Below, one piece after another: positions 1,826 to 13,207 of a DNA stretch of 36,317 bases (the stretch's first letter is position 1; each line of letters starts with the position of its first letter). The position numbers were made by a program, and so were the translations under genes. Under the pieces are notes generated by a model. The model saw nothing but the letters and a program-made list of their open reading frames with translations. It was not told where the DNA came from and searched no databases. This DNA comes from Candidatus Accumulibacter contiguus (lineage in GTDB: Bacteria > Pseudomonadota > Gammaproteobacteria > Burkholderiales > Rhodocyclaceae): positions 1 to 36,317 of the forward strand of contig NZ_SPMX01000031.1 in assembly GCF_012940005.1 (NCBI RefSeq). The letters are read 5' to 3'.

Positions 1826-2163
1826 GATGATTCTCCAGAGAGTGAGGGACGAGGCGACGACGCGGGGCAGTTGCCGGGAGGCCAATACGAGCGCCAGTCA
1901 CGGGTAGACATCGTCGGCGCAAAATCCTCCGAGCGGAATCGTCGTGCGGCGCAAATCACCATTCCAGTTCCTGCAATAATCCGGCAGGCCACGTTCGCCG
2001 TGGCCTGACCGCGACCGGACGATATGGCGGTATCTTCGTCGCTATAGCCTTTCGCCAGTTGGTGCATGATCTTGCCGGGTTGTTGCTTGCATTGCCGGCT
2101 TTCGTTCGTATAATCCCTGACTCTGCCGGGTCATACGACGTGGCAAGCATTCCGGGAGTTGGC
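1826..2163. other. intergenic region between divergent genes
   Basis: This stretch separates the minus-strand GST remnant from the plus-strand envelope operon. The only clear signal is the promoter at 2087-2114 facing right. Frames that cross it look like shadows. No RNA gene or repeat was recognised. Confidence 0.5.
2087..2114 (+). promoter_or_regulatory. sigma-70-type promoter of the envelope operon
   Basis: A perfect TATAAT -10 box lies at 2109-2114, with TTGCAT at 2087-2092 giving a 16-nt spacer; TTGCTT at 2083-2088 is an alternative but gives a longer spacer. Transcription would start near 2121, about 43 nt before the chosen start of the first gene. This argues against the longer frame that begins at 2059. 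Confidence 0.55.
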
Positions 2164-2916
2164 ATGAAGGGTTTCTTGAACCTGCTGGCGAAGGCAAAGC
2201 TGATCGAACTGTCGGAAGACGAGCGCCAGGCGGCCTCGGCAGAGGAGCCGCTGCAAGGAATTCCAATGGCCGGGACCGAGGCGCTTGCCGAGGCGCCGGA
2301 GCCGCCGCTGCACGCGCAAGCTTCCGGAGAGCCGGCAGCAGCGCCAGCCGCGAGTGCGCTGCCTTCGCTTGCGGAGGCCTGCCCGGACCTGGATGGCGAT
2401 GCCCTGGAAGGGCATGCCTTCGAAGACATTTTCGCGGCGGCAGGGGTTCCTGCCTCGCCGTATCCGGCCGAAAAGCTGCTGCGTCTTCTCGACGGCCTGC
2501 GCGCCATGGATGCCGGGACCCGCAAGATGGCGGTGCTGGCGATGGATGCGGCCGACGACAACTGGCAGATCAGTGATTGCCTGAGCGACGCCGATCTCAA
2601 GATCACCGCGCTGGAAGACCACAAACGGCAGTTGTCTGCACAGCTGCAGGACCGCGAGCGGCAGTCCACCGAACTCGTCGATCAGATCAGGCAGGTGCTC
2701 GATGAGGGGACGGCTGCGATTCGCAAACAGATCGCCGAACTCGAACAGTTGCTGGAACGTGAAGTGACCCGCGCGGCGCAGGAAACGACCAGCGTCGAAG
2801 CCGGCCTGCGCGCGGCGCGGGAGTCTGCCGCGCGCGAGACGCGCCGTGTGGACGCCGAGATCGATCGCCTGCGTGAAATACCGATCACTTTCAAGGCGCC
2901 CGGCGCCGCTCACTGA
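2164..2916 (+). CDS. coiled-coil protein, first gene of the envelope operon
   Basis: This is a 250-residue protein of unknown function. It begins MKGFLNLLAKAKLIELSEDE, has an Ala/Pro/Glu-rich low-complexity stretch (about residues 30-75), a compact acidic middle (about 80-140), and a long Gln/Glu/Arg-rich C-terminal half predicted as coiled coil (about 145-240). No signal peptide or TM segment is seen, so a cytoplasmic location is likely. The frame extends upstream to 2059, but that start would overlap the promoter; ATG 2164 follows a GGGAG stretch and suits a short leader. It ends 24 nt before the OmpA-fused binding protein, so it is probably co-transcribed with it. A cytoplasmic scaffold or partner for the coiled-coil PspA-like protein downstream is a guess from context. 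Confidence 0.75.
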   Translation: MKGFLNLLAKAKLIELSEDERQAASAEEPLQGIPMAGTEALAEAPEPPLHAQASGEPAAAPAASALPSLAEACPDLDGDALEGHAFEDIFAAAGVPASPYPAEKLLRLLDGLRAMDAGTRKMAVLAMDAADDNWQISDCLSDADLKITALEDHKRQLSAQLQDRERQSTELVDQIRQVLDEGTAAIRKQIAELEQLLEREVTRAAQETTSVEAGLRAARESAARETRRVDAEIDRLREIPITFKAPGAAH

Positions 2917-2940
2917 ACTTCCCAGCAAGGAGAACAACAC

Positions 2941-4647
2941 ATGGCTCAACTGACGCCACTGGCCAAGGGACTGATCACCGTCGTCGTTCTTGGCGTTGCC
3001 GGTTCGCTGGCCTGGAACTTCGGGCTCAAGGAGCGTTTTGCCGGTGGCGAGGCGGCGCCTGCGAAGCCGACGGCGGCCGCGCCCGCGCCCGCGCCAACGC
3101 CCGGAGCAACCACCCCCAAGTCGACGCCGCCAGCCAGGGCAGTGACGGCCGAAGACCGGAATGCGCCGCTCGGCAGCGCTGCCAACCCGCTGAAGGTCAG
3201 CCTGGTCAGTTTTCACGGCTATGCCCCGGCACTGGTGGCCAACGGCAACGACCTGAACACCCAGCCGGGTTCGATTTATGCCAAGGAGGGGGTCAATGTA
3301 CGTTTCGTGATTCAGGACGACATTCCGACGCTGGCCACCATCTTCGAATCCGGCGCCGCACAGTGCGCCTGGCGGACCTCGGATTTCTGGGCGCAGGAAC
3401 AGCCGAACCTGCGCAACGCCGGCCTCGATGGCAAGGCGGTGATGATCGTTGACAACACCCAGGGCGGCGATGCGGTGATCGCCCGCGATGCGGCAGTGAA
3501 AGCGGTCGAGGAACTGGCCGGTCGCTCGGTCGCGCTGCTGCAGTTCACGCCCTCACACGGCATGCTGATCGACGCCATCGACAATTCTTCACTGACCGCA
3601 CGCAAGAAGGAAAGCATCAAGATGGTATTCATCAACGCCGAGGAAGGAACCGCCGGCGTGCGCGCGGCGCTCGAATCCGGCGCTGTCGACGCGGCCGTGC
3701 TGTGGGATCCGGATCTGGCACTCGCTCTGCGCAATGTCAAGGGAGCGCATGTCGTCTATTCGACCCGGACGGCGACCAACCTGATCTTTGACGTGATGGT
3801 CTGCGACGCTCGTCTGCTGGCTAGGCCGGAAGGGCAGGCGGTGGTACAGAAGTTCGTTGCCGGCTGGATGGCAGGCGTGCAGGCGGCGCGTGCCAACCCC
3901 GACAACGCCGTGGAAGCGCTGGTCAGGACGCAGGAGTTCTTCAAGTTGCTGGCCGACAAGGAAGGTAGACCGTTCGTCAAGAGCCTGTTTTCCAATCTGG
4001 TGTGGACCGGCGTCGAGGATAACGCGCGCATTCTCGGGCTGGTCGGCGGCACCAATCATTACGAACGGGTCTACAAGCGCTTCGACGAGATCTATCGCAA
4101 GGCCGGTGCGCTGGCCAATCCCAAATCACCGGTGATCGCGCCGCAGGACAGCTTCGACTATCGTTATATCAAGGCCCTGCTCGGGCAGAACCAGGCTGCG
4201 GCAGAAGCCGCCGCCAGGCCGCAAACGACATTCACCCAGGCGGCGCAGAAGGAGGCGACGCAGCAGGAGGCGATGGTGACCAAGCCGGTGACCGTTGGTT
4301 TCGCCTCGGGGAGCGCCGAGTTGACCAAGCGCGCGCAAAAGACGGTCGATACCGAGATAGTGCCGTTCATCGAGAACAACGGCAAGGCCTACTTCGAGGT
4401 CAGCGGCAATTCGGATGCTACCGGTGCCCGCGAGGTCAATCTTCGTCTGTCGGCAGCGCGCGCACGCGCGGTGGTGGACTATCTGGCGACGCAATGGGAG
4501 TTCCCGCGCGAGCGTTTCAAGATCGTCGGCAACGGCCCAGACCGGCCGCTGTGCGTCGAAGCCAACGCCGCCAATGAAGGGCTCTCGATCGAGGAATGCC
4601 GGGCGCTGAACCGGACGACGCGGGTCGCCGTTTTCGGCGGCCGCTGA
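2941..4647 (+). CDS. ABC substrate-binding protein fused to an OmpA-like peptidoglycan-binding domain
   Basis: The 568-residue protein has an N-terminal membrane anchor (about residues 8-26) with no lipobox, and an Ala/Pro-rich linker (about 35-62). Next comes an NMT1/SsuA-like periplasmic binding domain (about 78-390), then a Gln/Ala-rich linker. The C-terminal OmpA-like domain (about 449-568) shows the SD-x-TG and N-x-x-LS-x-x-RA-x-x-V pattern that in this family carries the Asp and Arg contacting diaminopimelate of peptidoglycan. The architecture predicts a binding domain anchored in the inner membrane and held to the cell wall, unlike ordinary diffusible binding proteins. An AAGGAG ribosome site at 2927-2932 fixes the start. 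The permease follows after 22 nt. The ligand cannot be read from sequence; the taurine/sulfonate-like relation of the permease does not prove that substrate. Confidence 0.85.
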   Translation: MAQLTPLAKGLITVVVLGVAGSLAWNFGLKERFAGGEAAPAKPTAAAPAPAPTPGATTPKSTPPARAVTAEDRNAPLGSAANPLKVSLVSFHGYAPALVANGNDLNTQPGSIYAKEGVNVRFVIQDDIPTLATIFESGAAQCAWRTSDFWAQEQPNLRNAGLDGKAVMIVDNTQGGDAVIARDAAVKAVEELAGRSVALLQFTPSHGMLIDAIDNSSLTARKKESIKMVFINAEEGTAGVRAALESGAVDAAVLWDPDLALALRNVKGAHVVYSTRTATNLIFDVMVCDARLLARPEGQAVVQKFVAGWMAGVQAARANPDNAVEALVRTQEFFKLLADKEGRPFVKSLFSNLVWTGVEDNARILGLVGGTNHYERVYKRFDEIYRKAGALANPKSPVIAPQDSFDYRYIKALLGQNQAAAEAAARPQTTFTQAAQKEATQQEAMVTKPVTVGFASGSAELTKRAQKTVDTEIVPFIENNGKAYFEVSGNSDATGAREVNLRLSAARARAVVDYLATQWEFPRERFKIVGNGPDRPLCVEANAANEGLSIEECRALNRTTRVAVFGGR

Positions 4648-4669
4648 CCCGCATGCCCTGGCTGAGTGC

Positions 4670-5467
4670 ATGAGCGAATTCTGGAACCCCTACGCGCCAC
4701 TCGATGGCCGACAGCGGCAATGGCTCGGCGTCGGCTCGGTGCTGGCGCTGTTGCTGGTGTGGAGCCTGCTGACGGTAACTGGACTGGTCAGCTCGACCAA
4801 ACTGCCGGCACCCTGGGATGTGGTCACGGCGCTGTCGTATCTGAGCTGGCACGACGGCGACAGCATGTTGTTCACCGCGACGCTGTGGTCGGTCGGCCGC
4901 TTGCTCGTCGCGGGTGTGCTGGTGATCGCCATCGGCATTCCGATCGGCATCTGCATGGGCGCCGCACCGCGCGTGAACGCTGCCCTGTCGCCCTTGGTCG
5001 ATCCCTTCCGTTCGGCGCCGGTGGTCGCGCTGCTGCCGATCCTGGTGATGTGGCTGGGCATCGGCGAGACGATGAAGATCGCCTTCCTGTTCATCGGCGC
5101 CGTGGTCTATCTGATTCCGATGGTCCGTGACGCGATCCAGGCGGTGCCGCAGAGCTACTGGATCGGCGCCCGCGACCTCGGCGCGACGCCCTGGGAATGC
5201 ATCCACCGGGCGGTGATTCCGATGGCCATGCCGCGCATCGCCGATGCCGTGATCGTCGCCTTTTCGGTGATGTGGACCTACATCACCGTCGCCGAATACG
5301 TCAATGCACGCCAGGGCCTCGGGCAGTTGATCCAGAATGCCCGGCGCTTCAGCGCCTGGGATCAGGTCTTTGCCGGCATCATCGTGATCATTGCGCTGGC
5401 GCTGGCAACCTATCAATTCATGGTCTGGCTGAAGCGCCGCCTGTATCCCTGGGAGACGCAGCAGTGA
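4670..5467 (+). CDS. ABC transporter permease (SsuC/TauC-like)
   Basis: This is a 265-residue integral membrane protein of the binding-protein-dependent permease family. The N-terminal hydrophobic segment (about 18-40) is followed by several further TM segments. The conserved cytoplasmic EAA loop that docks the ATPase is visible as GARDLGATPWE followed by HRAVIPMAMPRI (about residues 165-190). It resembles the nitrate/sulfonate/taurine permease group and matches the neighbouring binding domain and ATPase. Its stop overlaps the GTG of the ATPase gene (GTGA, 5464-5467), indicating translational coupling. The substrate is unknown. Confidence 0.9.
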   Translation: MSEFWNPYAPLDGRQRQWLGVGSVLALLLVWSLLTVTGLVSSTKLPAPWDVVTALSYLSWHDGDSMLFTATLWSVGRLLVAGVLVIAIGIPIGICMGAAPRVNAALSPLVDPFRSAPVVALLPILVMWLGIGETMKIAFLFIGAVVYLIPMVRDAIQAVPQSYWIGARDLGATPWECIHRAVIPMAMPRIADAVIVAFSVMWTYITVAEYVNARQGLGQLIQNARRFSAWDQVFAGIIVIIALALATYQFMVWLKRRLYPWETQQ

Positions 5468-6330
5468 ACGTGGCGGCCAAGCCGGCAGGGATCTCCGCAG
5501 CGGCAGCCAGACCGCTGTCGGTGGTCGTCAAGGACATCGTCCAGGAATATCCGGCGCCCGGCGGTAGCGTGACGCGAGTCATTGACCAGGTCTCGCTGAG
5601 CTTCGATCAACCAGGCATCAGTATGCTGCTCGGACCCTCGGGCTGCGGCAAGAGCACCCTGCTGCACATGCTCGGCGGGGTGCGGCCGATGGGCATCGAT
5701 ACGCCGACGGCGGGCAAGGTTCTGATCGACGGGGTCGAGTGCATCGGCCCGCACGACGATGCGGTGATGGTCTTTCAGCGCTACGCCAATCGGCCGGATC
5801 TGACGGTGTTCGACAACGTCGCTTTCCCGTTCCGGCTCAATCTCTGGAAAGCACGGGTACCGGAAGCCGAGTGGCGGCAGCGCGTGGCCGACATCCTCAA
5901 GGCGGTCGGACTCGCGGACAAGCTCAAGCTGCGGCCGGCGCAGCTCTCCGGCGGCCAGAACCAGCGCGTTGCGCTGGCGCGCGCACTCGTCCTGCGGCCA
6001 CGCATCCTGCTGATGGACGAGCCCTTCGGGGCGCTCGACGCGCAGACGCGCGAGGAAATGCAGCAATTGTTGATCGAGTTGTATCAGTCCTGGCCGTGCC
6101 TGGTGGTCTTCGTGACGCACGATGTTACCGAGGCTCTGGTGCTCGGCGACCGCGTCATCGTCCTGTCCGCACAACCGGCGCGCGTTGCCGATGATTTCGT
6201 GATCAGCGAGGCTCGACCGCGCTCGGCCACCTGGCAGCGCTCGCGCGAGGCGCAGGCGCTCGAGGAGCGCATTCTCACGCAACTGCACCAGGCCAGTCCC
6301 GGCAGGGGACAGGTGCGGGTGACGGTGTAA
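5464..6330 (+). CDS. ABC transporter ATP-binding protein (SsuB/TauB-like)
   Basis: The 288-residue protein has all hallmarks of an active ABC ATPase: Walker A GPSGCGKST (residues 57-65), Q-loop (VFQRY), signature LSGGQNQR (about 161-168), Walker B ILLMDEP with the catalytic Glu (about 181-187), and the H-loop histidine in FVTHD. It should power the adjacent permease. The start is taken as GTG 5464, overlapping the permease stop; the frame is open much further upstream, but only within the permease gene. The first 18 or so residues are an unconserved Ala-rich extension. It ends two bases before the next gene, consistent with a single operon. Confidence 0.92.
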   Translation: MNVAAKPAGISAAAARPLSVVVKDIVQEYPAPGGSVTRVIDQVSLSFDQPGISMLLGPSGCGKSTLLHMLGGVRPMGIDTPTAGKVLIDGVECIGPHDDAVMVFQRYANRPDLTVFDNVAFPFRLNLWKARVPEAEWRQRVADILKAVGLADKLKLRPAQLSGGQNQRVALARALVLRPRILLMDEPFGALDAQTREEMQQLLIELYQSWPCLVVFVTHDVTEALVLGDRVIVLSAQPARVADDFVISEARPRSATWQRSREAQALEERILTQLHQASPGRGQVRVTV

Positions 6331-6332
6331 CC

Positions 6333-7214
6333 ATGGCCGAGGCGAAACCCTCCTACGTCCGGGAGGTTCTGACCAGTCAGACCAATCTCTACGCCTTCCT
6401 TGGTTCGCTGGCGGTCGGAGCATTGCTCTCGATCCCCTTCGGTTTCGCGGTCGGTGCGGTGCCGCTGATCGCTTTTGCCGCCGGCGACATCCTTGCCGCG
6501 CTGCACATCCCGTCGTTGCCGACCTTTCGCGAAAAGGTCGATCGGCGCTGGCGGGCGAACGTCCGGCAGGCCTCGCGCGAGCAGTTGATGACCGAGATTC
6601 AGAAGCGCTCGGGCAAGCGTGCGCTTTCTGCGCCGACCTTGCGCATCTATCAACGCATGTACGAACGCGTGCAGTCGCTCTATCAGCGTGCCGACAGCGG
6701 CCATGGCCGTCTCGCCTGGCGTGATGTCGAGCAACTCGACGAGGTGACGCTCGAATACCTGGCACTGTGGCTGGCGCTCCTGGTCATGGATGACCGCGCC
6801 GAATCGGTCAATCTGCGCGAGGTCGAACAGCAGGTGGCGGCGCTCGACAGAGAACTCGCTGCACCCCGTCCCGGCACCGACCTGCGGCAGTTGCAGAAGG
6901 CGCGTACCGATTATCTGGCGATCATCGAGCGGCACCACCGCATGCTCAGTCGCCGGCGGGCGCTCGAGGCGGCGATGCTGTCGATGCCTGACCAGCTCGA
7001 CGAGATTTATCAGACGATCATGACGCTGCCGGTGAGCGAAGACGTCGGCACGCGGCTCGAAGAGGCGATCGGCAAGCTGCGTCTACAGGAAGACATCGAG
7101 GCCGACCTCGCGAGCGATCTCGCCGAAAACTTGCCGGGCATGGCGATGCCGACCACGACGGCGGCACGGCAGCGGCGACTGGTCGCGGTGGGCGGCCGCG
7201 GCCGCGTCGGTTAA
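6333..7214 (+). CDS. two-TM membrane protein with long helical cytoplasmic domain
   Basis: The 293-residue protein is not recognised. An N-terminal hydrophobic hairpin (about residues 19-36 and 39-57) is followed by a basic stretch (FREKVDRRWRANVRQASRE) and a long, charged, mostly helical domain with coiled-coil character (about 90-270). The C-terminus is Arg/Gly-rich. The layout suggests an inner-membrane hairpin holding a cytoplasmic helical domain. It begins two bases after the ABC ATPase gene and precedes the PspA-like gene, so a role as membrane adaptor between transporter and PspA-like protein is plausible but unproven. The stop codon lies inside a dispersed repeat (7210-7243). Confidence 0.8.
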   Translation: MAEAKPSYVREVLTSQTNLYAFLGSLAVGALLSIPFGFAVGAVPLIAFAAGDILAALHIPSLPTFREKVDRRWRANVRQASREQLMTEIQKRSGKRALSAPTLRIYQRMYERVQSLYQRADSGHGRLAWRDVEQLDEVTLEYLALWLALLVMDDRAESVNLREVEQQVAALDRELAAPRPGTDLRQLQKARTDYLAIIERHHRMLSRRRALEAAMLSMPDQLDEIYQTIMTLPVSEDVGTRLEEAIGKLRLQEDIEADLASDLAENLPGMAMPTTTAARQRRLVAVGGRGRVG

Positions 7215-7243
7215 TGTGAAAGTCGCGTATGCGACTCACGAAT
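7210..7243 (+). repeat. dispersed 34-nt hairpin repeat, copy 1
   Basis: This copy matches 32824-32857 at 30 of 34 positions. The shared start is GTTAATGTGAAAGTCG and the shared end is TCACGAAT. The core folds as GTCGC-GTAT-GCGAC, flanked by GTGA/TCAC. Next to it are a second hairpin (GCCGG-ATAA-CCGGC, 7245-7258) and a repeated CTCACGAA (7235-7242, 7259-7266). It lies between the two-TM gene and the PspA-like gene and ends 34 nt before the latter's start. Confidence 0.65.
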
Positions 7244-7277
7244 GGCCGGATAACCGGCTCACGAAAGGAAGAAAGCG

Positions 7278-7988
7278 ATGGCTGACATCAATTTTGTCGG
7301 ACGCCTGTCCAACCTCTGGTCGGGCTTTGTCTCGCTGTGGATCACCGATGTCGAAAAGCGGCATCCCGAAATCGCTTACCAGAATGCCATCGACTCGATG
7401 ATCGGGAAATACGGCCAGCTGAAGAGCGCCACCGCAGCGATCATGCGCCGGCGTGAGGAGATCTCGGCGCGGCTGGAGAACGAGCGCAACGAACTCGCGG
7501 CGATCTCGGCCGACCTCAACGCCGCGCTCGCCACCAGTCAGGACGAACTCGGCATCGTCCTGATCCAGAAAAAGAACGCCCTCGAAGCCAGCATCAAGGT
7601 GCTGGAGCAGGAAATGGAACAGGCCCGCACCGACGCACAGGAGGCGAAGGATTCGCTGATTCAGATCAAGGCCGAGATTCAGAAGCTCAAGGATGAGAAG
7701 GATCGCATGCTGGCGCAGATGCACAGCGCACAGGCGCGGCTGAAAATTCAGAACCAGCTCGACGGCCTGTCGGTCGATGCCGAAGTGCGGGCGCTCGACA
7801 ACGTCCGCGAACACATCAGGAACACCGTTGCCGAGGCCAAGATGGGCAGCGAACTGCGCGATTCCGATCTCGACATCAAGCTCGCGCGGCTGCGGCAGAG
7901 CAGCGGCGCGATCACCGCCCGCCAGCAGCTCGAGGAAATGAAGCGCGCGCGCAGCGTCCAGACCGATACCACCGGCAAGTCGATGTGA
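7278..7988 (+). CDS. PspA/IM30-like membrane-remodelling protein
   Basis: This 236-residue protein is almost entirely helical and coiled-coil. An amphipathic N-terminal segment ([16 protein letters not shown]) is followed by a heptad-rich body rich in Glu, Lys, Gln and Ala (about 30-200). Length, amphipathic start and helical pattern fit the PspA/IM30 (Vipp1) family, bacterial ESCRT-III relatives that bind stressed inner membrane and form rods or rings. There is no signal peptide. A purine-rich ribosome site (AAAGGAAG) precedes the ATG. Its place between a membrane hairpin protein and an AAA+ ATPase recalls other PspA neighbourhoods, where AAA+ proteins are common partners. It is not classical pspA: no pspF, pspB or pspC is nearby. 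Confidence 0.8.
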
Positions 7989-8049
7989 TGCGCGATGTGA
8001 TGCCCACTGCCATGCGCGACAGCAGGCGCCGCCCCGCCCGCTTCCCGGC

Positions 8050-9930
8050 ATGAGCCCCGGCAGCGACGGCCGGCCAGCCCTGCCGGCATGGGCCGAGACG
8101 CTGCGCCAGAAATACCTGGCCGGCGAGGCCTCGGTCTTCGTTCTCTACCGCAATGTTTTCGACCGTTATCGGGTCGGCGAACGCTATTACACGCTGTTGC
8201 CCTTCCTCAGCGAAGTGCTGCTCAAGGACAACAAGCAGCACATCTACGAACTCAGCATCGATCGCGGCGTACGCGTCATTCAGGGCGGCAGCGCCGAAGA
8301 GAAGGCCGAACTCTACCGCCATCTTGAAGGCAAGGGACTCAACGGCATCTTCGAGTCGCTTGAACGGCAGATGCGCGAGCAAGGCTCCAGCGCGCTCCTG
8401 ATTCCCTATGCTGGAACCCTTTTCCCGGCCGCCGAACTGCATCTGCTCTCGCTCGAGGAGCGTGGTGCCTTCACCGCCCTGCATCGCTGGTCGCTTGACG
8501 AACAATTTGCCAATCGCGACAACGTCGTCCTCCTGGTCAGCGAATCCCTGGCCGACTTGAGCCCGGCGCTGCTGACGCATCCGCGTGTGCTGGCGATCGA
8601 GCTGCCGATGCCCGATCGTGCCGACCGGCACGCGGCGATCCGGCATTACGCGCCCGGCATGCCGGTAGCCGAGGCCGAGCCGCTCGCCGAGCACACCGCC
8701 GGCCTGCGCCTGATTCAACTGGCCAGCATCGTCGCCAGCGAAGCGCCGCTGGGATTGAGCCAGGCGCAGCGGCGGACGCTGATTGCCAGCCTGCTGCAGG
8801 GTAGCCCACAGGCTGCCGAGCGCGCCGAGAAACTGGCTGCGATCACTGCCGGCATGACGCCCGCCGAAATCGGCCAGCTCGTCGATCCGACACGCGTGCT
8901 GCCCGGGAACGGCGATCCGGCAGGCGAGATGATGGCCGTGGTGCGCCAGCGCAAGCGCGAGTTGATCGAAAAAGAATGCGCCGGACTGATCGAATTCATC
9001 GAACCGCGGCATGGCCTGGAGAGCGTCGGCGGCAACGCGCAGATCAAGGGCGAATTGCTCGACATCGCGCGCCTGATCCAGGGCGGCGAGCGCGCGCGCG
9101 CGCCGATGGGACTGCTTGCAGTGGGGCCGATGGGTGCCGGCAAGACCTTCGTGATCAAGGCCTTTCTCAAGGAAGCGGGGCTATCCGGGATCGCCCTGAA
9201 AAACTTCCGCTCGAAATGGGTCGGATCGACCGAGGCCAATCTCGACCGCGTCCTGGCAACCGTCAAGGCGATGGGACCGATCGCACTGCTCATCGACGAA
9301 GGCGACCGCAGTTTCGGCCGGCAGGGTGACGACACCGACGGCGGCACCAGTTCGCGGGTCATTGCCCGTCTCAAGGAATTCATGTCCGATCCCGAGAATC
9401 GCGGCCAGGTGCTGTTCATCCTGCTGACCAACCGCCCCGACAAGCTCGATACCGACATCAAGCGCCCCGGCCGCCTCGACCGCAAGATCCCCTTCTTCTA
9501 CGCCGAGACCGCGGCCGAACGTGCCGCCGTCGTCCGCGCCGTTTTCGAGCGCTACCGGGTGTCCGTCGATTTCCCGGAAGAGCACCTGCTGGCCGCCTGC
9601 GAGGGACTCGATGGCTATTCCAATGCCGACCTGGAAGCCCTTGCTCTGCTCGCTGCCGAGTTTGCCGAGCGGGCGAAGCGTGCCGATTCGCCCCTTCCTT
9701 TGCCCGCGCGAGCAGGCGCCGCGGCTACCCCGGCCGTCAGCCGGGAAGTTTTCGCGCTTGCCATCGATGACTTCATGCCACCGCAGGAAACGACCATGGT
9801 GCGCTACATGGAAATGCTCGCGGTCGCCGAAACCTCACGGCGCTCGCTGCTGCCGCAACGCTTCCGGTCCTTGTCCGCGCGCGAGGTGCAGGAACGGCTC
9901 GCCGAGTTGCGGCGTGAGATCCTCTCTTGA
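8050..9930 (+). CDS. AAA+ ATPase with a degenerate first and an active second ATPase domain
   Basis: The 626-residue protein has two AAA-like halves. The first (about 20-250) keeps the predicted fold, including a [15 protein letters not shown] strand, but has no Walker A and is probably structural. The second (about 330-540) has Walker A GPMGAGKT (359-366), Walker B ALLIDEGD (about 413-420), sensor 1 [11 protein letters not shown], and the RPGRLDRK arginine-finger region typical of the classical AAA (FtsH/p97) clade. A helical lid and tail follow. No protease or TM segment is present, so a remodelling role is more likely than proteolysis. It starts 61 nt after the PspA-like gene; the ribosome site is weak, so the exact start is less certain. 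By analogy to Vps4 and ESCRT-III it may disassemble PspA-like polymers (inference). Confidence 0.88.
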
Positions 9931-9940
9931 AGGAGTTCCT

Positions 9941-10393
9941 ATGTTCCCCCTGCTTGAAAATGTCTCCCTCGATGCCGACCAGAGCATTGCCGCGACCCGC
10001 CTGCTGTTGCGCATCGCGCATGTCGATGGCGCCAGGACCACCGAAGAGGTGGCACTGATTCGCTGGTTCCACGATAGCGGCTGCGACGCCAGCGTCGACT
10101 GGCCGGCTTTCGATAGCCTGCAAGAGGCCGGGCCGGGTGGTGAATTCTCCTGCACCTTCGGTGCAGCGGCAGAGCGCGACCTGGTAGTCGCTACCTGTCT
10201 GATGGTCGCCTATGCCGACGGCGTGCTGACCCCCGAGGAACTGGCGGCAGTACGCGATGTGGCCGAAGAAATCGGTATGCCGTCAACGCGCGTCGATGAA
10301 CTGCTGGCATTGGTCAAGGACTACATCCTGTCGCAACTGGCCAATCTGCCCGACGCCGGCTCGGTGGCGGTCGTGGCGCGCGAACTCGGCTGA
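9941..10393 (+). CDS. TerB-like protein
   Basis: This 150-residue, acidic, all-helical protein has two tandem D-G-x(4)-E-E patterns: AHVDGARTTEEV near residues 25-36 and AYADGVLTPEEL near 88-99. This is the arrangement of the TerB/TerB-like domain, where such acidic residues are thought to bind metal. TerB-like proteins occur in tellurite-resistance and wider membrane-linked stress systems. AGGAG at 9931-9935 lies just before the ATG, and only ten bases separate it from the AAA+ gene, so it is the last gene of the operon. No signal peptide is seen. It is probably a cytoplasmic partner of the membrane proteins encoded upstream. Confidence 0.78.
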   Translation: MFPLLENVSLDADQSIAATRLLLRIAHVDGARTTEEVALIRWFHDSGCDASVDWPAFDSLQEAGPGGEFSCTFGAAAERDLVVATCLMVAYADGVLTPEELAAVRDVAEEIGMPSTRVDELLALVKDYILSQLANLPDAGSVAVVARELG

Positions 10394-10537
10394 AGTTCTG
10401 CGGGGTTCAAAGGAAGGCTCGGCCGACTCACGGCTGCATCCTTGCGTGAGGCGCAGGGCCGGCATGCATGCGACCTCAGGACCTTGCAGGTGGCGGGCGC
10501 AGACGCGTCCGAAATGATACGCCGAGAGGTTCCCGGG

Positions 10538-10560
10538 CCGACGTGTGTCGGTTTTTTTTT
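10538..10560 (+). terminator. rho-independent terminator of the envelope operon
   Basis: The stem CCGAC-GTGT-GTCGG is followed directly by nine T residues. It lies about 145 nt after the TerB-like gene and is the only strong terminator after the eight-gene operon. Confidence 0.85.
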
Positions 10561-10765: not shown

Positions 10766-11578
10766 GTGAAAATCAAACAGACCATGAAAAAGATGGCAGC
10801 CTCCTGTGCTGTAGCCATGTTTGCTTTTGGCGCGCAGACCGCGCAAGCGGTTCCCGTCGATCTTGAGCTTTACCTGGCGCAGGACGTGTCGGGCAGCGTG
10901 GATGGCACGGATTTTACGCTGTCGCGCAGCGGTATCGCCAGCGCCTTCCAGAGTGCGGCGGTGATCAGCGCCATCCAGAGCGGGGCAATCGGCAAAATCG
11001 CCGTGAAACTGGTGGACTTCTCGAATGCCGTGCACTTGGCGGTCGACTGGACGGTCATTAGCGATCTGGCCAGTGCGACTGCTTTTGCCAACGCGGTTTC
11101 GCTTGCCCCACGCGGCGCGGGAGGCGGCAACGACGGGCAGAGCAACCTGATCAATACTGCGCTAGCCGACATCAACGGCAACAATTTCGAGGGAACGCGG
11201 CGTACCCTCGACATCGCATCCGAGGGTGCGCAGGACATCGACGGCTGCGCTTTCAACAATGTGGTCTGCCCGACAGTTCAGGCGGCGCGGGACAATTTCC
11301 TGACGAACGGCGGGACCACGATTAACGCGATCTGGTTGAACGACCGCGATTTCTTCGGTCTCGACGCGACCGACCTCATCAACGCCTTCCAGTATGGCAG
11401 CACGAACGTCATTGGTGGTCCCGGCTCCTTCCAGGCCTTCGCTCAGGACTTCACCGCTTTTGCTCCGGCGATCGAGAAAAAGATTGAGCGCGAGATCAGG
11501 GGTTTGCCCGAGCCTGGCATTCTGGCTCTGCTCGGCCTCAGTCTCGGTGCATTCGGATTCGCGCGTCGGCGCGCGTAA
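10766..11578 (+). CDS. PEP-CTERM exported protein with DUF1194/vWA-like domain
   Basis: The 270-residue protein begins with a signal peptide (basic start, hydrophobic core, cleavage after AQA near residue 28). The mature part resembles DUF1194, a von Willebrand A-like fold, with a MIDAS-type D-x-S-x-S in AQDVSGSVDG. Its C-terminus is a textbook PEP-CTERM signal: LPEPGILALLGLSLGAFGF, then arginines. Exosortase EpsH/XrtA is expected to cleave such tails and deliver the protein to the surface or the exopolysaccharide matrix. The start is GTG 10766 with AAGGAG at 10753-10758. It is transcribed alone from the sigma-54 promoter, which fits co-regulation with a biofilm/floc programme. The ligand is unknown. 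Confidence 0.9.
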   Translation: MKIKQTMKKMAASCAVAMFAFGAQTAQAVPVDLELYLAQDVSGSVDGTDFTLSRSGIASAFQSAAVISAIQSGAIGKIAVKLVDFSNAVHLAVDWTVISDLASATAFANAVSLAPRGAGGGNDGQSNLINTALADINGNNFEGTRRTLDIASEGAQDIDGCAFNNVVCPTVQAARDNFLTNGGTTINAIWLNDRDFFGLDATDLINAFQYGSTNVIGGPGSFQAFAQDFTAFAPAIEKKIEREIRGLPEPGILALLGLSLGAFGFARRRA

Positions 11579-11654: not shown

Positions 11655-13207
11655 TCACTTCCATGCCAGATCGCGGCGCCGGATCTTGCCGTTGGCAGTG
11701 CGCGGCAAGCTGTCGGTGAAGAGGATCTCGCGGGGACATTTGTAGGCCGCCAGATGTTCATGGGCGTAGGCCAGCAGCGGCGCGGCGTCCAGTCCATCGG
11801 GCTCGTCGGGGTCGCGCGGCACCACGAAGGCCGCGATCACGCGGATCCCCTCGCGCACCGCCATTTCGGTCACTGCCACTTCCGCCACCGCCGGATGTTT
11901 GCTCAGGCAATGCTCCACCTCCAATGGCGACACTCGGTAGCCCATGGCATTCATCATGTCGTCGTTGCGGCCATGATAGATCAGGTAACCGTCCGCGTCG
12001 AAATGTGCCAGATCGCCACCGATGAACCACTCGCCCCGGTACACCAGTTCCTCTTCGTCCGCTCGGTTCCAGTAGCCCAGCATCAGGCCTGGATCGCTGC
12101 GATGTACCGCCAGCAGCCCGGTCTCTCCCGGCGGCAATGGCTCCTCCCCACCCTCGACCGGCAGTGCCACCACGCAGCGGCCCTGCTGTGGTTTGCCTGA
12201 ACTGCCCGGCCGTACCGCTACGCTGGGCGACGAAGAGATGTAGGTCGAGCATTCGCTCATCCCCAAAGCTTCGTACAGTTCCTTGCCGGTCGTCGTCCGC
12301 CACTGTTCCAGCAAAGCGGTGCCCAGCGCCTCGCCGGCGGTCAGGCCGTGGCGCAAGCGGGAAAGATCGAACGCGCGCAGGTCGTTGTACTTCAGTATCT
12401 GCCGATACAGCCCTGGCACCGCGGCGAACAGGGTTGCCCGGAATTTCTCCATGAGCATCGGCCAGACCGTGACATCGCGAGGCCCGTTGTAGAGCACCGC
12501 GGTCGCGCCGTTGGCCCAGGGGTCGGTCAGACCGACCCCCAGCGTATAGGTCCAGTTGAACGCACCGGCGTGCAGGATCACATCATCTTGGCGGATGTCA
12601 TACCAGCCTGATACATCGGTCGCCGTCCCCAGGCCGAGCGCTGGGCGTGCAACACTCCTTTGGGCTGGCCGGTGGTGCCGGAGGTGTAAATCAGAAAGGC
12701 GGGATCGTCGGCAGCGGTATCGGCGTAATCGAGTCCCTCGTGCCGGTTTCGCAACAACGCGATGTCGCTGGAACCCAACACTTGCACGCCCGGCGGAGCC
12801 TGGATTGTCAACTCCTCCGACATGGCGACAATCCGGGCGCCGGAATCGGCCAGCAGAAAATCAGCTTCCTCCTCGGTCAGTTGCGCCGAGGACGGCAGCG
12901 GTACACAACCGGCGGCGATGGCGCCGAAGAACAGCAGTGCGTAATCGCTGGTATTGCCCATGCGGATCATCAGCCGTGCCCCTGGTTCCAGACCCAGAGC
13001 ACGCAGCCCCGCCGCCATTTGTCGGACGGCTTTGTCCAGTTGCGCGTAAGTCCAGTGTTCCGCTCGTTCGGCCAGTGCCTTGGCGTCGGACACCACGACC
13101 AGTGCCACCTTGTCCGGGGTGGCCCGGGCCGCTGCCGACAGACAGTAGCGCGCCATGTTGAACCGTGCCGGCGGCAACTGGCCAGTGTAATGCCAGCGAT
13201 CTCTCAT
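11655..13207 (-). CDS. acyl-CoA synthetase (AMP-forming), interrupted by a one-base frameshift
   Basis: Two adjacent frames together make a complete ANL-superfamily ligase of about 517 residues, which would activate a carboxylic acid via an acyl-adenylate to its CoA thioester. The N-terminal frame (13207-12578) holds the AMP-binding signature YTSGTTGQPKGVLH. The C-terminal frame (down to 11655) holds GWYDIRQDD (partly before its first start codon), the YEALGMSE adenine site, the hinge region GRNDDMMNAMGYRVSP, and the catalytic Lys motif RTANGKIRR. The frames join if one base is restored near 12606-12607; total length plus one is divisible by three. The start at 13207 lies nine bases after the CYTH-like gene. 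This is either a recent pseudogene or a sequence error. The substrate is uncertain; the overall look is benzoate-CoA-ligase/medium-chain type. Confidence 0.82.

Follow-up and report, generated by a model that had tools for sequence, protein, structure and literature searches.

What holds together a run of genes in which a solute importer with a wall-binding component stands beside a PspA-family protein, an AAA+ protein and a TerB-domain protein? The question is raised by contig NZ_SPMX01000031.1 of Candidatus Accumulibacter contiguus (assembly GCF_012940005.1), of which positions 1 to 36,317 were analysed as a whole and are called the window here (36,317 nucleotides). An earlier note, made from the letters alone, had described eight of its genes as one operon that joins a peptidoglycan-tethered ABC (ATP-binding cassette) transporter to PspA-like, AAA+ and TerB-like proteins, and had suggested that together they form an envelope sensing and repair machine. 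We hold with high confidence that the gene unit exists and is conserved, and on its function we put forward a tentative proposal, in which a wall-tethered solute-binding protein (SBP) would act as a sensor that controls membrane remodelling by PspA and the AAA+ protein. Eight open reading frames on the + strand span positions 2164-10393, separated in order by 24, 22, -4, 2, 63, 61 and 10 nucleotides, and the open frames, their spacing and the Pfam labels of genes 2, 3, 4, 6, 7 and 8 confirm the tightly spaced same-strand cluster. The genes and their diagnostic motifs are as follows; labels are Pfam matches above the curated cut-off unless stated, and NCBIfam and PADLOC were also scanned.

2164..2916, + strand: gene 1, coiled-coil protein (alternative start GTG at 2140)
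2941..4647, + strand: gene 2, anchor, linker, solute-binding domain and OmpA domain (Pfam OmpA and NMT1)
4670..5467, + strand: gene 3, ABC importer permease (BPD_transp_1; the best model is TauC, under that model's cut-off)
5464..6330, + strand: gene 4, ABC ATPase (ABC_tran; GPSGCGKST and LSGGQ; GTG start)
6333..7214, + strand: gene 5, membrane-anchored helical protein (open reading frame with a hydrophobic stretch)
7278..7988, + strand: gene 6, PspA/IM30-family protein with an N-terminal amphipathic helix (PF04012, PspA_IM30)
7977..7985, + strand: K-S-M at the C-terminus of PspA, an instance of the conserved pattern [KR][STNQA][MLI] (tail comparison)
8050..9930, + strand: gene 7, AAA+ protein with a P-loop-less N-terminal half and an intact C-terminal AAA domain (Pfam AAA)
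9124..9147, + strand: Walker A GPMGAGKT in the C-terminal AAA domain of gene 7 (motif pattern)
9199..9234, + strand: pore loop of the gene 7 AAA+ protein (pattern)
9941..10393, + strand: gene 8, TerB-domain protein (Pfam TerB)

Conservation of the gene unit

The loci compared are the best 80 of 153 relatives of the AAA+ protein found in genome contigs, and family profiles derived from this set served to sort them into classes; L001 and L082 both duplicate the window. Genes 2-3-4-5-6-7 keep the order of the window in 40/80 loci (class A), 22 further loci of the Hydrogenophaga/Rhodoferax type form class B, and five loci, four from Acidobacteriota and one from Myxococcota, carry the same six families reordered, with SBP identities of 29-31% (class C). 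Among the other 13 loci, seven end at a contig edge at most 1.8 kb upstream, four hold PspA and AAA+, and two (L072, L075) hold genes 6-5-7. The nearest named relative of the AAA+ protein, 94% identical, is in Candidatus Accumulibacter vicinus. The earlier note had named confinement to close relatives as one outcome that would refute its reading; what is found is a linkage of the wall-binding SBP to PspA and AAA+ that is conserved beyond them. That unrelated genes sit side by side by chance has in its favour that no transcript evidence ties them together; with one order in 40 loci, another order in five and changed versions in 22 plus four more, we regard this explanation as barely credible, and for genes 2, 5, 6 and 7 it is already refuted by the recurrence across loci.

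Gene 1, which like gene 5 has no family above cut-off in the Pfam and NCBIfam scans, is matched by its profile in 39/40 class A and 22/22 class B loci; the one miss (L055) lies at a contig end, and in L017 the gene sits at the opposite end of the unit. An open frame upstream in the class C locus L074 is gene 1-like by eye, and the gene 1 profile has no match there. The TerB label of gene 8 is secure (E 2e-9, 38.2 bits versus a cut-off of 24.4), and its profile matches in 33/40 class A and 20/22 class B loci. Six of the seven class A loci without a match are of Lysobacter type (L067-L070, L073, L080) and extend at least 2 kb beyond the AAA+ gene, which argues that TerB is dispensable; in the seventh, L024, and in the class B loci L036 and L051, the contig ends at or just past the AAA+ gene.

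Two variations within the set are recorded in their own right. In the class A loci L022 (8189-9046), L062 (7849-8724), L064 (8235-9107) and L065 (8327-9187) a further gene, some 286 residues long, stands immediately before PspA, and a similar one was seen by eye upstream of PspA in L063; the L062 protein matches nothing in Pfam, NCBIfam or PADLOC, and the L065 protein nothing in Pfam. The contigs of L018 and L019 are labelled Desulfuromonadales and Trichlorobacter, and the AAA+ tree places their class A operon within a group of betaproteobacterial operons, which may reflect horizontal transfer or mis-binning.

The arrangement is known in outline. A nearly identical operon has been named and proposed to couple the transport of solutes to an ATP-driven remodelling of membranes (PMC11237479, mSystems 2024; example OGG56892.1), and the suggestion of the earlier note that such a function was undescribed is not supported. 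The operons of that paper share with ours PspA, an AAA+ protein, an ABC ATPase, a permease and a solute- and peptidoglycan-binding protein, and probably also the transmembrane (TM) helical protein and the inactive N-terminal half of the AAA+ protein; the window has PspA, AAA+, ABC ATPase, permease and solute/peptidoglycan-binding gene in one run, as expected for this type of operon. The differences are that its main text mentions TerB nowhere and that its passages on these operons contain neither the coiled-coil gene 1, nor importer-free or PotF-swapped forms, nor the PspA tail. The class variants, the loss of the importer, the PotF-like swap and the PspA tail are new here. A literature search, in which subscription papers were mostly outside reach, found no further description or experimental study of the operon.

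The wall-binding protein and the importer

At its N-terminus the gene 2 protein has a hydrophobic anchor, which an Ala/Pro-rich linker connects to an NMT1/SsuA-like domain (residues 113-323) and an OmpA domain (residues 454-538); the Asp and Arg of the latter are retained in 44/48 cases by pattern and in the remaining four by eye. The solute-binding protein of the window has scattered matches, to models or chains for sulfonate, urea, taurine and nitrate, and none of these models reaches its cut-off. Binding protein, permease and ATPase together make the Type I ABC importer set complete in the window; all three families are those of SsuABC/TauABC-type importers, from which the window differs by the membrane anchor and the OmpA domain of its binding protein. 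It could be asked, then, whether the unit is simply a specialised nutrient importer whose own PspA and AAA+ merely guard against leakage. The complete importer fits this explanation, and so does the high conservation of importer and SBP in class A, where in L067, for example, identity is 65% for the SBP, 71% for the permease and 70% for the ATPase, and 52% for PspA, 49% for AAA+ and 37% for gene 5. We nevertheless consider it unlikely, since two groups of loci keep the wall-binding SBP, PspA and AAA+ with no permease or importer beside them.

The first group is class B, in which the permease profile matches in 0/22 loci. The interval between genes 1 and 5 is occupied there by a short TM protein and a longer one of roughly 520-580 residues. 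In the short protein the TM segment of gene 2 is preserved, and a scan of the L028 protein shows a weak Sel1/TPR part behind it; the TM motif M-x-x-LTPL-x-K is retained in class B proteins that have lost the SBP-OmpA part. The longer protein contains PG_binding_1 and SBP_bac_8 in 21/21 cases scanned with Pfam; the 22nd (L030) was excluded, its open frame being a wrong-frame pick. For L028 the match to the PotF model reaches 2.8e-66 (below cut-off) and that to solved polyamine-binding proteins 6.3e-62, and the alignment keeps W-x-D and two further aspartates, which we take to be the residues that hold polyamines. Over the 22 proteins N-W-x-D-Y occurs in 21, G-x-x-G-D in 21, the peptidoglycan-repeat pattern in 20, the next aspartate pattern in 18 and Y-A-N-A-N in 18. 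The class B protein is like the polyamine-binding proteins PotF and SpuD in its binding domain and differs from them in being fused to peptidoglycan-binding repeats and in having no adjoining permease match. These features suggest polyamines as the ligand of the class B form, which would fit PMC11237479, where PspA operons linked to polyamines are mentioned.

In a tree of the AAA+ protein, made by a quick method that gave long-branch warnings and with ten near-duplicate or truncated rows excluded, class B and its reduced relatives form one clade of 27 rows with support 99, and the sister group of this clade contains the importer-bearing loci L053, L054 and L056. This position among importer-bearing relatives points to a loss of the importer and a swap of the binding protein.

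The second group, class D, consists of four distant loci of the window's class (L117, L118, L123, L124), which have PspA, AAA+ and a TM-SBP-OmpA protein. Within 15-19 kb around each of the four there is no permease match and no LSGGQ-type open frame of more than 150 residues; L118 has one match to the ATPase profile, on the opposite strand and about 4 kb off. A Pfam binding-protein family is recognised only in L117, and the gene 2 profile matches the binding region in 4/4; the PspA of L118 falls just below the Pfam cut-off (33.7 versus 33.9). The transporter, which the earlier note placed in the unit, is not its constant part: the permease is missing in 22/67 loci assignable to classes A-C and, within the sequence covered, in all four of class D. 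Because the SBP stays where the permease is gone, it is the wall-binding SBP, and not the importer, that appears as the constant outside part.

PspA, its tail and the AAA+ protein

Gene 6 scores 61.2 bits against PF04012 (cut-off 33.9), and its N-terminal helix is strongly amphipathic. After a variable linker, PspA ends in [KR][STNQA][MLI] in 81/81 rows, which are 80 distinct places with the window counted twice; L071, whose short contig holds no PspA, is outside this count. Among other PspA proteins, drawn from 143 surveyed genomes of the class, 1/24 shows the pattern. These controls come from 25 of 29 loci (L088-L112, above the Pfam cut-off), of which 24 gave an open frame by coverage and composition; among the profile-matched controls only, the pattern is found in 1/12, and none of the control loci has this AAA+ protein within about 1.5 kb on each side. 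The tail is present in the four loci with PspA and AAA+ that lack genes 1, 2 and 5 (L038, L060, L063, L066), and also in loci without TerB. Since it survives without these genes, the AAA+ protein is the likeliest candidate for the reader of the tail, which is what we infer.

The AAA+ protein itself combines one intact ATPase half with one that lacks a P-loop. In the C-terminal ATPase, Walker A is found in 82/82 with a wider pattern (70/83 with a narrower first one), and Walker B, pore loop and arginine box in 83/83; in the N-terminal half the P-loop is absent in 82/82. The profile of the N-terminal half has a weak match to a VCP-like ATPase (E 9.2e-6), by position to its first ATPase ring, and the two halves of the alignment, set against each other, show no usable similarity (E 0.48). 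The best solved relatives by profile are Cdc48/p97 chains. The pairing recalls ESCRT-III with Vps4 in archaea and eukaryotes, where likewise an ESCRT-III-superfamily protein stands beside a classical AAA ATPase, and the K-W-V-G pore loop of gene 7 presumably resembles that of Vps4. The differences are a P-loop-less AAA-like N-terminal half, the closer relation to Cdc48/p97 and the absence of an MIT family among the Pfam matches of gene 7.

The same relation to Cdc48/p97, together with the intact pore loop, also suits a different role, in which PspA and AAA+ would serve, as chaperone and unfoldase, the assembly or quality control of the wall-anchored or another envelope complex and not membrane remodelling; PMC11237479 proposes that membrane complexes are assembled by PspA together with AAA+ chaperones. 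The strongly amphipathic helix of PspA, as expected for membrane binding, and the loci in which PspA and AAA+ occur with no anchored complex in the sequenced surroundings speak the other way, and we judge this role improbable.

With the classical Psp system (PspF-PspABC) the unit has the PspA family in common. It differs in that no PspB or PspF family occurs among the eight proteins and no PspC (PF04024) match in the window's genome, whereas 7/14 control genomes match PspC. Besides gene 6, the only PspA-like place in the window's genome (L083, contig C96, 199682-200242) contains four stop codons and is a decayed gene; the open frames that flank it resemble pieces of a Ser/Thr kinase by eye.

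Gene 5 was described in the earlier note as a protein with two TM segments. By eye it has one extended hydrophobic stretch, at about residues 17-60, which makes two segments plausible, and the hydropathy scan chose one window in it, 30-48. Its profile finds no credible relative among solved structures (best E 0.41), and the idea that it is itself an ESCRT-III relative, a Snf7 homolog with a TM segment, is unsupported, there being no profile similarity to PspA. A membrane protein stands at the gene 5 position in the class D loci L117, L118 and L123 (the last judged by eye), and those of L117 and L118 are 61% alike. The window-type gene 5 profile has no match in class D, where L118 aligns weakly to window-type gene 5 (E 0.0013, probability 18%) and no gene 5-like protein was recognised in L124.

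Proposed mechanism, distribution and surroundings

How could these parts work together? We propose, with somewhat less than even confidence, that in this unit a wall-tethered, ligand-responsive solute sensor governs a machine in which PspA and the AAA+ protein remodel membrane, and that the importer is optional. The N-terminal helix of gene 2 would lie in the inner membrane and its OmpA domain on the peptidoglycan, with the solute-binding domain between them, so that the protein could report ligand and perhaps also the distance from membrane to wall; in the window it could in addition dock on the complete importer of genes 3 and 4. Relay of the state of gene 2 to the cytoplasmic face would fall to the membrane protein of gene 5 and the coiled-coil protein of gene 1. 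There PspA would bind stressed membrane by its amphipathic helix and polymerise, and the AAA+ protein would disassemble the filaments by pulling on the C-terminal K-x-M tail, in a manner similar to that of Vps4 on ESCRT-III, with TerB as an accessory adaptor. A more far-reaching version, possible but doubtful in our estimate, sees here a bacterial pair of ESCRT-III protein and unfoldase commanded from outside, in which the wall-clamped sensor would set the balance between the build-up of PspA filaments and the feeding of the K-x-M tail into a half-dead AAA+ protein, while importer and sensor class (sulfonate/nitrate-type with OmpA, or polyamine-type with peptidoglycan-binding repeats) are swapped or lost and the logic is kept. 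If the proposal is true, a PspA accompanied by its own AAA+ protein, a defined tail and a solute sensor bound to the wall would make it possible to test how filaments turn over and how signals from the cell wall and from solutes are coupled to membrane repair.

Several points weigh against this proposal. It rests on sequence comparison. In L038, L060, L063 and L066, PspA and AAA+ stand without genes 1, 2 and 5, and the sequenced surroundings show no sensor; the positions of these loci in the AAA+ tree are scattered (class B contains L038 and L066, and L060 and L063 group with lysobacteral class A rows), and for this reason they look like separate reductions. The high identities of importer and SBP, which can be the best conserved genes of class A, imply that transport must matter there. 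In the class B loci L026 and L029 gene 1 has upstream of it an ABC ATPase gene that differs in length and scores lower, and six class B loci have less than 3 kb upstream or no sequence past the AAA+ gene. The tail pattern was composed after the tails had been seen, and it stands at the C-terminus in 0/4 class D PspA proteins, three of which have R-S-M followed by 9, 9 and 15 further residues. Gene 5, the putative relay, has no similarity to PspA by profile. Finally, occurrence is patchy: the AAA+ protein is present in 17/28 genomes of the genus, in 1/9 of the rest of the family and in 0/24 of the rest of the order.

Wider searches agree that the unit is a rare, patchy accessory one. The N-terminal half of the AAA+ protein is found in 4/398 Pseudomonadota genomes, including the window's own, and a class D query in 2/369 genomes of the class; plasmid records contain no AAA+ match at E 1e-30. 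The window-type gene 5 profile matches in 1/398 Pseudomonadota genomes, the window's own, a figure that is uninformative about relatives as distant as class D because the profile misses class D.

The patchiness within the genus is also what could be expected of an anti-phage defence operon built from AAA+, TerB and PspA. PADLOC gives weak matches of AAA+ to IetA (7.7e-9), gene 2 to ZorB (3.6e-4), PspA to LmuB (6.7e-4) and TerB to PDC-S48 (7.8e-4), and an NCBIfam anti-phage ATPase model matches at 2.6e-6, far under its cut-off. Such matches lie over general AAA, OmpA or coiled-coil stretches, and the Pfam scan of the eight proteins contains no nuclease or protease; a defence role is therefore very improbable in our view. 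The Ter stress system shares the TerB domain of gene 8, and it differs in that no TerC or TerD Pfam match was obtained among the eight proteins.

The signals that could govern transcription of the unit, and those within it, are the following.

2087..2114, + strand: promoter-like site (weak TTGCAT at 2087-2092, 16-nucleotide spacer, perfect TATAAT at 2109-2114)
7216..7259, + strand: two hairpins ahead of the PspA gene (folding -21.2 kcal/mol, z -3.1 versus shuffles)
10535..10560, + strand: intrinsic-terminator-like hairpin and T-run (listed by the terminator scan)

Genes 1-8 are likely to be on a single transcript. The earlier note had counted one promoter and one terminator. The promoter is half-supported: its TATAAT is perfect, the -35-like TTGCAT matches at 3/6 positions, and the output of the promoter scan does not include the site. 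The terminator is ordinary, being listed in the scan as one of six such sites, fewer than the shuffle mean of 9.3, and folding no better than shuffles (z -0.16). The hairpins at 7216-7259 could set a separate expression level of PspA, AAA+ and TerB.

Around the unit, a short open frame on the + strand (41-304) looks like a transposase end by eye and has no Pfam match. Just downstream of the operon, on the same strand, lies a DUF1194 protein (10766-11578) with a C-terminus that is PEP-CTERM-like by eye, and beyond it, on the - strand (11655-13207), an AMP-binding, acyl-CoA synthetase-like gene appears to be split into two overlapping frames, which may be a broken gene or a sequencing error.

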